Part shown: positions 389 through 5,263 of the stretch, piece after piece
How positions within the stretch are numbered: the first letter of the stretch is position 1
Layout: every line of letters begins with the position of its first letter
DNA from: Candidatus Desantisiibacteriota bacterium
GTDB taxonomy: Bacteria > JACRDZ01
Direction of reading: 5' to 3'
Assembly: GCA_016209155.1 (NCBI GenBank)
Contig: JACQWU010000188.1
Span: 1-5,263 of the forward strand
Length of the DNA stretch: 5,263 nucleotides
The notes under the pieces: model-generated
The model's input: only the letters and a program-made list of their open reading frames with translations
Told to the model about the DNA's origin: nothing
Database searches by the model: none
Program-made: the position numbers and the translations under genes

Positions 389-514
389 ATGAAGAACCCT
401 GCGGCAGCGACCGCAGGTATCTTCTGTCTCTGATAGGAATTCTTTATTATTTATTTTTGTGCCAATTCATCCCTGCCTTAGAAAGGCAGGGTATTAATGG
501 CACATCCAGATAAA
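389..514 (+). repeat. 126-bp two-hairpin repeat, copy 1 (upstream of the cytochrome)
   Basis: This segment recurs at 1452-1577 in the same orientation; my hand alignment gives nine mismatches and two single-base gaps, about 91% identity. Hairpin 1 pairs CCTGCGG (398-404) with CCGCAGG (411-417) around a 6-nt loop. Hairpin 2 pairs CCCTGCCTT (471-479) with AAGGCAGGG (483-491) around AGA. Its outer stem is GTGCCA (459-464) with TGGCAC (498-503), and the six bases between the stems (465-470) no longer pair. An AT-rich linker with GAATTC lies between the hairpins. No open reading frame and no outer terminal inverted repeat were seen. It resembles a REP/MITE-like dispersed repeat more than an insertion sequence. 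It sits inside the predicted 5' leader of the cytochrome mRNA. Confidence 0.85.
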
Positions 515-564
515 ATAGCATAAATTAATGAAAAAAAAATTAAAAATAAAGGGGGGAATACTTA

Positions 565-1107
565 ATGATTGAATGGATTAAAAAAAATTTGGTATTAACT
601 ATCGTAATTGTTATTGTAGCCGGTACTGTAGCTTTTGTCGCAGGTATTAAATTAGCCGATAAACCATTTTTTTGCGGTATGTTATGTCATGAAATGCAGC
701 CCCATGTTGACAGTTTAAAAGCCAATTTTCATGGTGCAAAAGATGTAATCTGTATGGACTGCCATTCTGAGCAAGGTTTTATCAATCATGCTACCGAGCA
801 TCTTGCCGCATTATCACTCCTCGGCGGTCATTTCAGCAAATCTTATCTTGAAGACGAATTTGGTTTTCATAAAAACGTGCAGGGTTTTAATGCAGAGGAA
901 ATGAATTTTAAAGGAAAAACAGATACTGAAGAAGAAAAAAAATTATTGGGAAAATGCGCGGAATGTCATCCCAACAGAATGGGGACATCATATTATATGA
1001 AAGTTCCGGAACATAAAAAAGAAATGATAACTGAAAACTGCATACGCTGTCATGAAGAAGTTGAAGCTCAAAAACAAGAAGGCGAACCTGCAAAAATTTA
1101 TGGCTGA
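565..1107 (+). CDS. NapC/NirT-like membrane-anchored multiheme cytochrome c (N-terminal part of a split gene)
   Basis: This is a 180-aa protein with a short cytoplasmic start (MIEWIKKN), one hydrophobic anchor (about residues 8-28) and an extracytoplasmic multiheme domain. That is the plan of NapC/NirT/NrfH-type quinol dehydrogenases, which take electrons from menaquinol and pass them to a periplasmic reductase. Heme motifs are a CX3CH (C37, C41, H42, followed by EM as in the family's CxxCHxM first heme) and three CXXCH (C63-H67, C131-H135, C159-H163). Additional histidines at H47, H56, H75 and H79 are possible distal ligands. The start is supported by AAGGGGGG (549-556) 8 nt upstream. The stop overlaps a further heme-binding frame (1100-1444), and the two probably encode one protein (see that entry and the findings). 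The gene is bracketed by two copies of a 126-bp repeat. The partner reductase is not visible, so the electron acceptor is unknown. Confidence 0.85.
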   Translation: MIEWIKKNLVLTIVIVIVAGTVAFVAGIKLADKPFFCGMLCHEMQPHVDSLKANFHGAKDVICMDCHSEQGFINHATEHLAALSLLGGHFSKSYLEDEFGFHKNVQGFNAEEMNFKGKTDTEEEKKLLGKCAECHPNRMGTSYYMKVPEHKKEMITENCIRCHEEVEAQKQEGEPAKIYG

Positions 1108-1444
1108 TACTGAATGTACTGAATGTCATTCAAATAACATGAAATTTGATATTGAAACTTGTGTGGGATGCCATGATGATACATACAAAGCTAAACTTAC
1201 TGAATACAAAAATAATTATAAAGCAAAATTTGATGAAGCCAGTAAGTTATATGAAGAAATAACAAAAGCAATTGCTGAAGGAAAAAATCCTGGCGCATCT
1301 GAGGCAATACTTAAAAGAGCTGAATTCAATTTTAAATATGCATCTCTTGATGGAAGTAAAGGCATGCACAATCCTGATTTTACTGATTCACTTTTCACTA
1401 AAGTGATGGCAGATTTAAACGAAGTGAAAAATGCTTTAAAATAA
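1100..1444 (+). CDS. Diheme C-terminal segment of the split multiheme cytochrome
   Basis: This frame encodes two closely spaced heme motifs, CTECH and CVGCH (residues 6-10 and 21-25 from the ATG at 1100). A helical, lysine-rich stretch of about 85 residues follows, ending with a G-x-HNPD segment of the kind seen at the C-termini of multiheme cytochromes. It has no signal peptide or anchor, yet heme c is attached only outside the cytoplasm, so it makes little sense as an independent protein. It lies +1 relative to the preceding cytochrome frame and overlaps its end (ATGGCTGA). Removing one base near the A-run at 1092-1096 would join them into a six-heme protein of about 293 residues. The ATG at 1100 has only a distant purine tract (AAGAAGG, about 1077-1083). 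An earlier in-frame ATG at 1052 lies inside the upstream gene's fourth heme codons and has no ribosome site. Coupled translation remains a less likely alternative. Confidence 0.75.
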   Translation: MADTECTECHSNNMKFDIETCVGCHDDTYKAKLTEYKNNYKAKFDEASKLYEEITKAIAEGKNPGASEAILKRAEFNFKYASLDGSKGMHNPDFTDSLFTKVMADLNEVKNALK

Positions 1445-1451
1445 TTTCGTA

Positions 1452-1577
1452 ATGAAGAACCCTGCGGCGGAGACCGCAGGGTATCTTATGTCTCTGACAG
1501 GAATTCTTTATTATTTATTTTTGTGCCATTAATACCCTGCCTTAGAAAGCAGGGTATTAATGGCACATCCAGATAAA
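1452..1577 (+). repeat. 126-bp two-hairpin repeat, copy 2 (downstream of the cytochrome)
   Basis: Direct repeat of 389-514, starting 7 bp after the cytochrome stop. Hairpin 1 pairs ACCCTGCGG (1459-1467) with CCGCAGGGT (1474-1482) around a 6-nt loop and can be extended by AAGA/TCTT with a one-base bulge. Hairpin 2 has a perfect 18-bp stem, GTGCCATTAATACCCTGC (1523-1540) with its complement at 1549-1566, around an 8-nt loop. Each copy has lost pairing at a different place: copy 1 in the middle of hairpin 2, copy 2 at its tip. The two together suggest an ancestral stem of about 21 bp. No run of T follows either hairpin, so they are not typical terminators by themselves. Confidence 0.85.
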
Positions 1578-3406: not shown

Positions 3407-5263
3407 TTATTCATTAAATGCTTCAAACGGTATTGATGCAAGGCCATAAGAATATTTTATATATCGGATTACTTCAGATGATGAATAAGTTGATAATTTG
3501 TCATATTTAAATACTGCCCATTCTTTTTGGGAAAATAAAATTATATAAAAGGATTTACCTGTCTCTGCATCCCATATACATGTATCAGTAAAATCAACAT
3601 TTTCAAATTCACAAAGTCCAAAAGATGAATATTTTAAATTTACATTTTTTAAATTTGCATTATTCATTTTGCATTTTATAAACTCAGATGCTTGAAGATT
3701 AGCTTTTTCAAAAATCGCGCCTTCCAAAAAAACCTCTTTTAAATATATCCTGGTTAAATCAGTTTTTTCCATTACTGCTTTTTCAAAATTTGATTTAATA
3801 ATTTTACTATTGGACAGATTAGCATTATACAGATTAGCATTTGATAAGTTTGAATTTTTTATTATAACGTTTTTTAAATTAGCGCTTTTAAAATTAGCAT
3901 ACTCCAAATTTAAATCAGACAGCTCCCATGTTTCAAGATTAGCGCCTTCAAGATTTATTGATTTTGGTTCATCCAATGAAATCCCTGATTTTTTGCAGGA
4001 AATTATTAATGCAAAAGCATTCTCGCTGCGCTGTGATACATACTCTGCTTCAATAATAGATATGAGTGTTTTGCTGAAATTGGTTTTATCGACTAATTCT
4101 TCTTTAAGTTCAAGAAGCCCAATTATAAAATTTCGAGTTTCAATAGATAATAACGGCAAATCAAAAACTTCCGGTTTCTCTGAGCTTAAGCCTCTTACAA
4201 CATATCTTGCAATAAAAAATTCCTGTAATGACGTATGCGCAAAACGGAAATTATTATTTCCATCCCGAATAAGAAAAGTTGATGTGCGAATATCACTTTC
4301 AATTGTCATTCTTAAAATATTTTCATAACTTATTTTGTATTTGCTATCTACTTCATTATCAACCCAATCCTCCTGACCTTCGTCAGTTTTGCGTTTCAAA
4401 TCACCAAGATGCTCGGTAATAAGTGACAATAAATAGGGCCTCTCAGAAAGATCCGCAAGATTATGAATACGGTTAATCAATTCCCATGTTTCGTTTCTTC
4501 TTTCAATACCAAATATTTTCTCAAGATATAACTTAATCTGGTCTTCATTAAATGGTTTTAAATAATAAACTAAAAAATCATCAGATCTTCTGCCCGTGCG
4601 CCTGCCACCTGTAAGCATATTTTTTTCTTCCCTATGATCACGAAAATAATGTGTCCTGCACGCAATCAATAATTTTCCTTGATAAGTATATTTTTTGTTT
4701 TTTTGAATATCTGATTCTTGAGATTTGTCTTTTATTTCCCTGTTTGGTAAAATACTTTGTATTTGTTCAATAAATTTATTTGCCTGCGCAGGTTGTAAAT
4801 GAACCGTCTTCTCATCAAGCCCGTCAAAAATTATAATAATATCACCCTGCCTAACTAACTCTATAACAATTTCAGGTTTTACATCCCTGACACCATTTTT
4901 CTTTAATATAGAATCGATCATTTCTTCAGCAGTAGGAATCCTGTCTCCAATATAAGTATTAATATGACGTAAATCAATATATAAAGGTAAAGGTAATTCC
5001 GGATTCTGCTTCCTTTTTTGTAAAAGTTCGCGCGCAAACATTCTGGAAAGAAAAGTTTTCCCAATCCCATAGTCACCTAAAATAGCACAATATGAATAAT
5101 CATCATTTTCTAACCAACGAAATAAAGCATCTAAAGCATCCTGGTCTATTTTTACAGATTTAATATTTCCATGTTCTTGTTCAAATAAAGATGCTTCCCA
5201 TTTTTTTTCTTTTACTAATGCATTAATATATCTTTCTTTTTTATAATATTTACAGTATTCATC
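3407..5263 (-). CDS. NACHT-type STAND NTPase with pentapeptide repeats (5' end off the right edge)
   Basis: The open frame encodes at least 618 residues and is still open at the window edge, so the N-terminal effector domain is not visible. An internal ATG at 5041 is not the start, because the Walker A motif GDYGIGKT (5054-5077, residues 63-70) lies upstream of it in the same frame. Walker B is IIIIFDGLDE (4811-4840), the DGLDE form typical of NACHT ATPases. Further NACHT hallmarks are LLIACRTHYF (sensor region), LSERPYLLSLI, and FRFAHTSLQEFFIARYV (winged-helix region). Residues about 436-564 (3572-3958) are A(N/D)Lxx-type pentapeptide repeats forming a predicted right-handed beta helix; a 54-residue non-repeat tail ends the protein. 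Such proteins are NLR-like sensors. Several bacterial NACHT proteins are known to defend against phage by sensing infection and triggering a fused effector. The pentapeptide array would take the sensor position here (inference). Confidence 0.88.
   Translation of the reverse strand, partial: DEYCKYYKKERYINALVKEKKWEASLFEQEHGNIKSVKIDQDALDALFRWLENDDYSYCAILGDYGIGKTFLSRMFARELLQKRKQNPELPLPLYIDLRHINTYIGDRIPTAEEMIDSILKKNGVRDVKPEIVIELVRQGDIIIIFDGLDEKTVHLQPAQANKFIEQIQSILPNREIKDKSQESDIQKNKKYTYQGKLLIACRTHYFRDHREEKNMLTGGRRTGRRSDDFLVYYLKPFNEDQIKLYLEKIFGIERRNETWELINRIHNLADLSERPYLLSLITEHLGDLKRKTDEGQEDWVDNEVDSKYKISYENILRMTIESDIRTSTFLIRDGNNNFRFAHTSLQEFFIARYVVRGLSSEKPEVFDLPLLSIETRNFIIGLLELKEELVDKTNFSKTLISIIEAEYVSQRSENAFALIISCKKSGISLDEPKSINLEGANLETWELSDLNLEYANFKSANLKNVIIKNSNLSNANLYNANLSNSKIIKSNFEKAVMEKTDLTRIYLKEVFLEGAIFEKANLQASEFIKCKMNNANLKNVNLKYSSFGLCEFENVDFTDTCIWDAETGKSFYIILFSQKEWAVFKYDKLSTYSSSEVIRYIKYSYGLASIPFEAFNE

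Follow-up and report, generated by a model that had tools for sequence, protein, structure and literature searches.

Two repeat copies flank a multihaem cytochrome gene

The window, by which we mean the whole stretch of 5,263 nucleotides analyzed here, is contig C73 of a 3.08 Mb Candidatus Desantisiibacteriota genome comprising 352 contigs (78.8% complete). It carries a gene for a multihaem cytochrome in the order tmk-cytochrome-rimO and two copies of a 126-bp, gene-free element, one on either side of the cytochrome gene (Table 1). Over their entire length, the copies align as direct repeats with 93.0% identity by BLAST, or 91.3% when gaps are counted, in agreement with a first-pass annotation that had described them as equal in length, similarly oriented, and about 91% identical. 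The same annotation had the copies exactly framing the cytochrome unit; they do flank it, but the fit is loose, with 50 bp separating the end of copy 1 from the cytochrome start (565) and copy 2 beginning 7 bp after the stop (1444). Its report that the window contains neither a transposase nor a terminal inverted repeat holds, and no open reading frame (ORF) in the window has a transposase domain.

The genes of the contig show irregularities of their own. The cytochrome frame changes at 1063–1096, where approximately 100 residues of the 385-aa homolog in the same-phylum genome G001 (residues 165–264) are missing, reflecting either gene decay or a local fault in the assembly. The rimO gene, matched in other phyla at 35% to 49% identity, is split into ORFs 1632–1814 and 1798–2892, with a frame change at 1797–1802 and approximately 24 residues of its relatives missing. 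Internal losses in both genes on one contig suggest decay or misassembly. On the minus strand, a NACHT-type NTPase fused to C-terminal pentapeptide repeats (3407–5263) runs off the contig end and is possibly a STAND/NLR-like defense protein.

Table 1. Features of the 2 element copies and the enclosed gene in the window (CM, covariance model).
Feature	Position	Strand	Details
Element copy 1	389..514	+	Full length (126 bp); CM 150.9 bits
Element copy 2	1452..1577	+	Full length (126 bp); CM 140.5 bits
Left boundary	389..390; likewise 1452–1453	+	Invariant A, nearly invariant T (29/32 copies), A/T-rich target before
Hairpin 1, copy 1	391..424	+	GAAGA, bulge, CCTGCGG / CCGCAGG, TA, TCTTC; right arm minus one G
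Hairpin 1, copy 2	1454..1488	+	Core stem ACCCTGCGG/CCGCAGGGT
Hairpin 2 module, copy 1	450..514	+	Reaches right boundary of the element
Hairpin 2, copy 2	1522..1567	+	Perfect 19-bp stem, 1522–1540 with 1549–1567; left arm unlike family consensus
Right boundary motif	508..513; likewise 1571–1576	+	AGATAA
Cytochrome	565..1444	+	NapC/NirT-type, multihaem; between the copies, outside the element; shorter than relatives, frame-shifted near 1063–1096

The copies belong to a dispersed, lineage-restricted family

The first-pass annotation had proposed counting copies across the genome, and the two in the window turn out to be members of a large family. Copy 2 matched about 40 places in its own genome by BLAST, and a covariance model built from 29 copies located the element at no fewer than 39 dispersed intergenic places (E<1e-7), a lower bound because the best 150 candidates were scored. 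Approximately 30 of these are near full length, further ones are fragments, and many weaker entries represent the opposite strand of the same hairpins. We estimate the family at about 40 to 60 copies. No copy was detected by DNA search in 59 relatives (3 genomes of the same phylum and 56 more distant ones) or by the covariance model in the other 3 genomes from this phylum. A core-pattern scan of GTDB genome contigs and viral contigs likewise found no element, nor did plasmid and phage collections yield one, all of these being collections that perhaps omit the genome itself and its near relatives.

The mean pairwise identity of the copies is 85%, and the subfamily to which the window copies belong is star-like with very short branches. 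Identical copies of 124 to 127 bp occur in unrelated flanks on contigs C70 and C77 and again on C212 and C203; since some copies are still identical, the spread of the family was recent. Other copies are shortened, lack the greater part of hairpin 2, or have a second repeat, which ends in TTTTTGGACAGCCCC, lodged within them.

A second repeat family, the ends of which resemble ggg(c/t)tgtccaaaaagg ... tttttggacagccc(c), has inserted into the element or lies directly against it in several cases (L040:262-400, and left of position 1043 in L043, 1050 in L045, and 16887 in L047), as if the palindromes attracted it. In addition, a separate palindrome like ACCTGAATCTTGCACTTCAGATTCAGGT adjoins three copies (right flanks of L005 and L006, and L046); the genome therefore carries several REP-like families.

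Sharp ends and one-sided target preference

The aligned copies have sharp common ends, seen in 32 copies, beyond which the sequences are unrelated. The left end follows AT and starts with GAAGAACC (ATGAAGAACC leading into the hairpin), and the right end reads GGCAC(A/T)T(C/T)CAGATAA. Immediately outside the left end, A occupies position −2 in 32/32 copies and T position −1 in 29/32. The left flank, of the form (T/A)(A/T)AT, is A/T-rich: positions −8 to −3 of GAAG are 92% A/T versus a background of 76% further out (P 4e-7), the fixed motif being limited to AT. The right flank lacks such enrichment (76% versus 73%, P 0.45), and the left-only preference points to one-sided target choice, as in insertion 3′ of a target.

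The aligned ends contain no terminal inverted repeat, and a junction-by-junction test revealed no target duplication at any offset, with isolated single matches only. The family thus lacks both hallmarks of classical DDE-type miniature inverted-repeat transposable elements (MITEs), terminal inverted repeats and target site duplications, and counts as a MITE in the broad sense, its numerous dispersed copies sharing their ends but not the flanking sequence. We regard the 126-bp block with high confidence as a non-autonomous, mobile, hairpin-ended interspersed repeat, its mobility being well supported.

A conserved two-hairpin fold and possible correction of its arms

Two modules make up the element, at element positions 1–59 and 62–127. 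The first comprises hairpin 1 (GAAGA-bulge-CCCTGCGG/CCGCAGGG-bulge-TCTTC) plus a weaker hairpin of small size; the second is hairpin 2, the outer arms of which, TTTATTT/AGATAAA, extend to the right boundary. Overall, an A/T-rich linker connects two imperfect hairpins that differ from each other. In copy 1, the outer arms of hairpin 2 pair positions 450–456 with 508–514 and enclose TGTGCC/GGCACA, a mismatched middle, and CCCTGCC/GGCAGGG. The predicted folds of copy 1 (−50.1 kcal/mol, z −6.66) and copy 2 (−58.8 kcal/mol, z −9.50) were equaled by 0 of 200 dinucleotide shuffles in each case. A search of Rfam gave no match at the gathering score, with sub-threshold chance matches only.

Pair counting across 27 distinct copies found 93.7% of cells paired and changes on both sides at 9 pairs (31 cells), with a covariation score above those of all 500 shuffles and all slid versions, although kinship among the copies inflates such counts. 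In hairpin 1, the covarying pairs are CG to UA, UA to CG, CG to UA, and GC to AU, and three stem types occur (CCTGCGG, CCTCGCAGC, and CCTGTGGC) in which both arms have changed together.

The consensus hairpin 2 contains a mismatch, AATTCATC against GTATTAAT, which has been perfected through a changed left arm in copy 2, L002, and L014 and through a changed right arm in L022 and L029; the bulge of hairpin 1 has been made perfect in L007, L019, and L027. The stem of hairpin 2 in copy 2, initially given as 18 bp, is indeed perfect but 19 bp long. The accompanying suggestion that each copy had decayed at a different place did not survive comparison with the family: the mismatched hairpin 2 of copy 1 is the consensus, and the unusual form is the perfect hairpin of copy 2, with the left arm ATTAATAC in place of AATTCATC. 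Viewed in light of established replication biology, the perfected arms would fit template-switch correction of imperfect palindromes, so that the perfect stem of copy 2 need not be ancestral. Some of the hairpin “covariation” may likewise reflect such correction instead of selection for pairing. In a further copy, L191:213-316, the hairpin 1 palindrome runs past the element into the flanking DNA (CAATATTA...ATAATATTG), the outcome that a fold-back template switch would give.

Independent insertions, rather than a cassette or a regulatory element

The first-pass annotation had offered three explanations for the pair: a mobilized cassette, a duplication by recombination, and REP/MITE-like insertions on both sides. 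The dispersed family, with identical copies in unrelated flanks, upholds the last of these; the other two are not supported. For the cassette or local duplication, one can point to same-orientation copies 1,063 bp apart that enclose a single gene and to a tmk-cytochrome-rimO order not seen in relatives. However, each of the two copies has closer relatives elsewhere, L004/L005 for copy 1 (98.4%) and L002 for copy 2 (94.5%), versus 91.3% between the two, which share no flanking sequence beyond the element. Random placement of 40 to 55 copies predicts 0.55 to 1.05 pairs within 1.1 kb, and 43% to 65% of simulations yielded one such pair or more. Furthermore, cytochrome homologs are present in the same-phylum genomes G001 and G003 (69% and 65% identity), where cytochrome and rimO homologs lie on separate contigs among other neighbors; neither genome yielded the empty tmk-rimO junction that the first-pass annotation had proposed to look for. 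Because a close pair is expected by chance, the copies are nearer to others, and the homologs have other neighbors, the cassette idea is unneeded, and we judge it extremely unlikely. The copies in the window are independent insertions on either side of the cytochrome gene.

A fixed role would, according to the first-pass annotation, have been favored if these two copies were the only ones and the tmk-cytochrome-rimO order with both repeats were widely conserved; the family is larger, and this gene order was not found in the relatives. A regulatory or structural RNA or DNA element serving the neighboring genes (a terminator, mRNA stabilizer, or riboregulator) would account for the strong conserved fold and for the placement of copy 2 between the cytochrome stop, 7 bp away, and a terminator-like hairpin that follows closely at 1585–1617. 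When the copies were mapped against genes, called as simple non-overlapping ORFs, they proved intergenic and in every orientation: 12 against both neighbors, 9 with both, 8 between divergent genes, and 4 between convergent ones. Such placement argues against a terminator or leader role. The lack of the element in the phylum's 3 other genomes and the many copies that are incomplete or broken by other repeats further weaken the regulatory explanation, which we consider very unlikely.

Candidate enzymes

The genome contains seven Y1_Tnp genes, and all six that were scanned with NCBIfam score better as REP-associated tyrosine transposases (RAYTs) than as IS200. One of them, on contig C349, exceeds the cut-off (97.7 versus 80 bits) and lies approximately 1.5 kb from an element copy. 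The Y1/REP-associated transposase genes for which the first-pass annotation proposed to look are accordingly present, but a cognate gene with element ends was not found, as none of the seven loci has element ends flanking the gene. The absence of such an enzyme is weak evidence, since the genome is 79% complete. The C349 gene was considered as a source of the cognate enzyme but rejected, because the palindrome at this gene contains GTAG and is not the element.

REPs are recognized by a GTAG (or CGTC) tag at the hairpin foot (PMC3733652, PMC8266576). Mobilization of the element as a REP-type population by a RAYT of this genome, with an atypical guide replacing GTAG, would agree with the RAYT-like genes present and with hairpin 1, the conserved internal bulge of which (A / TA) recalls that of Escherichia coli REPs (PMC8266576). 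The element also shares with REP/REPIN/BIME systems the organization into short, paired, intergenic imperfect palindromes with compensatory changes. In contrast to these systems, neither hairpin foot has a GTAG or CGTC tag, although palindromes with GTAG accompany the C106 and C349 genes; the hairpins differ in stem sequence and are not two inverted copies of one REP, so there is no inverted doublet; and no RAYT gene is directly flanked by a copy. Lacking GTAG, the element fails the REP definition, and a RAYT origin appears unlikely.

Other loci of the genome are of interest in this respect. Beside the Y1 gene on C106 is a GTAGGGAACGGTTTCAAACCGTTCC repeat, a pattern with 8 matches across the genome, of which C106 itself holds 5. 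With its GTAG-tagged REPs close by, this RAYT-like gene (L061) is a REPtron candidate from a phylum that has been poorly sampled. On contig C314, repeated large palindromes (GTTAGGCGGCGC...GCCGCCTAAC; L056:1651-1754 and 2526-2636) lie beside a Y1 gene and resemble integron attC sites; a reverse transcriptase gene is on the same contig.

Searches found neither TnpB nor IS110, and the search for Y2 (IS91-type) transposases gave zero matches in this genome and likewise zero anywhere for its control. Reverse transcriptase genes are present, the nearest to a copy on a shared contig being approximately 8.5 kb away (C329). A different, undetected mobile system, for example, retro- or recombinase-based, may have spread a structured DNA or RNA unit. 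The reverse transcriptase genes would accord with this, as would the predicted plus-strand pairing, which covers the whole element and has constant G-U pairs in the outer helices; those G-U pairs are not independent evidence, because the helices were chosen from the plus-strand fold. Against it stand the lack of any reverse transcriptase match adjoining a copy, of a poly(A) tail, and of a target duplication, together with the failure to find IS110, and we hold such a system to be improbable. We consider it quite doubtful that the element belongs to a hairpin-ended mobile class whose enzyme is something other than an IS200 TnpA or a RAYT reading GTAG, and in which the two hairpin modules together span the element so that its full length is the transposing fold.

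The best reading, in which we place middling confidence, is a PATE/REP-like non-autonomous element that a Y1 (HUH) transposase, acting in trans, would move in single-stranded form; the assignment to the Y1 (HUH) class itself may well be correct. The transposase would bind the two subterminal hairpins in single-stranded DNA and cut at the A/T-rich left target, between WWAT and GAAGA, and after CAGATAA at the right end; the freed strand would then be joined on the 3′ side of another A/T-rich site, and no target duplication would arise. The enzyme class, the cleavage positions, and the single-stranded route are inferred. Counting against this reading are orientations without significant bias relative to local GC skew (P 0.14) and a target motif that is short and A/T-rich instead of a fixed tetranucleotide.

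Relationship to known elements and implications

Palindrome-associated transposable elements (PATEs) are end-only derivatives of IS200/IS605. Like PATEs, the element is dispersed and gene-free, has a hairpin near each end and neither terminal inverted repeats nor target duplications, and would be expected to be mobilized in trans. It differs in that no parent IS with matching ends was found, in its preference for an A/T-rich run ending in AT, and in its length of 126 bp, with hardly any sequence between the hairpin modules. Because the parent element is missing, the likeness is one of mechanism, by analogy, and falls short of proof that the element is a PATE. The bcr1-type repeats of the Bacillus cereus group are likewise mobile, structured, and intergenic, approximately 100 to 160 nt long, and not known to have a transposase; they differ from the element in having a short target duplication. 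IS200/IS605 elements lack terminal inverted repeats and target duplications, have a hairpin at each end, and insert 3′ to a short motif (PMC7290912, PMC6006769). By analogy, the testable features of the element appear to fit end-only elements of this group.

The element is a new family of a familiar mobile-repeat kind and not a special cytochrome cassette. What it contributes is a repeat family without a tag, built of two hairpins and sharply bounded, from a phylum of which sampling is poor. Variants in which one arm has come to match the other may preserve natural traces of palindromes being corrected through template switching. Palindromic repeats without a tag have been named as an open problem (PMC3733652), and the presence of the element alongside GTAG REPs and RAYTs in a single genome offers a test case for which enzyme such repeats use, be it RAYTs, IS200 transposases, or something else.
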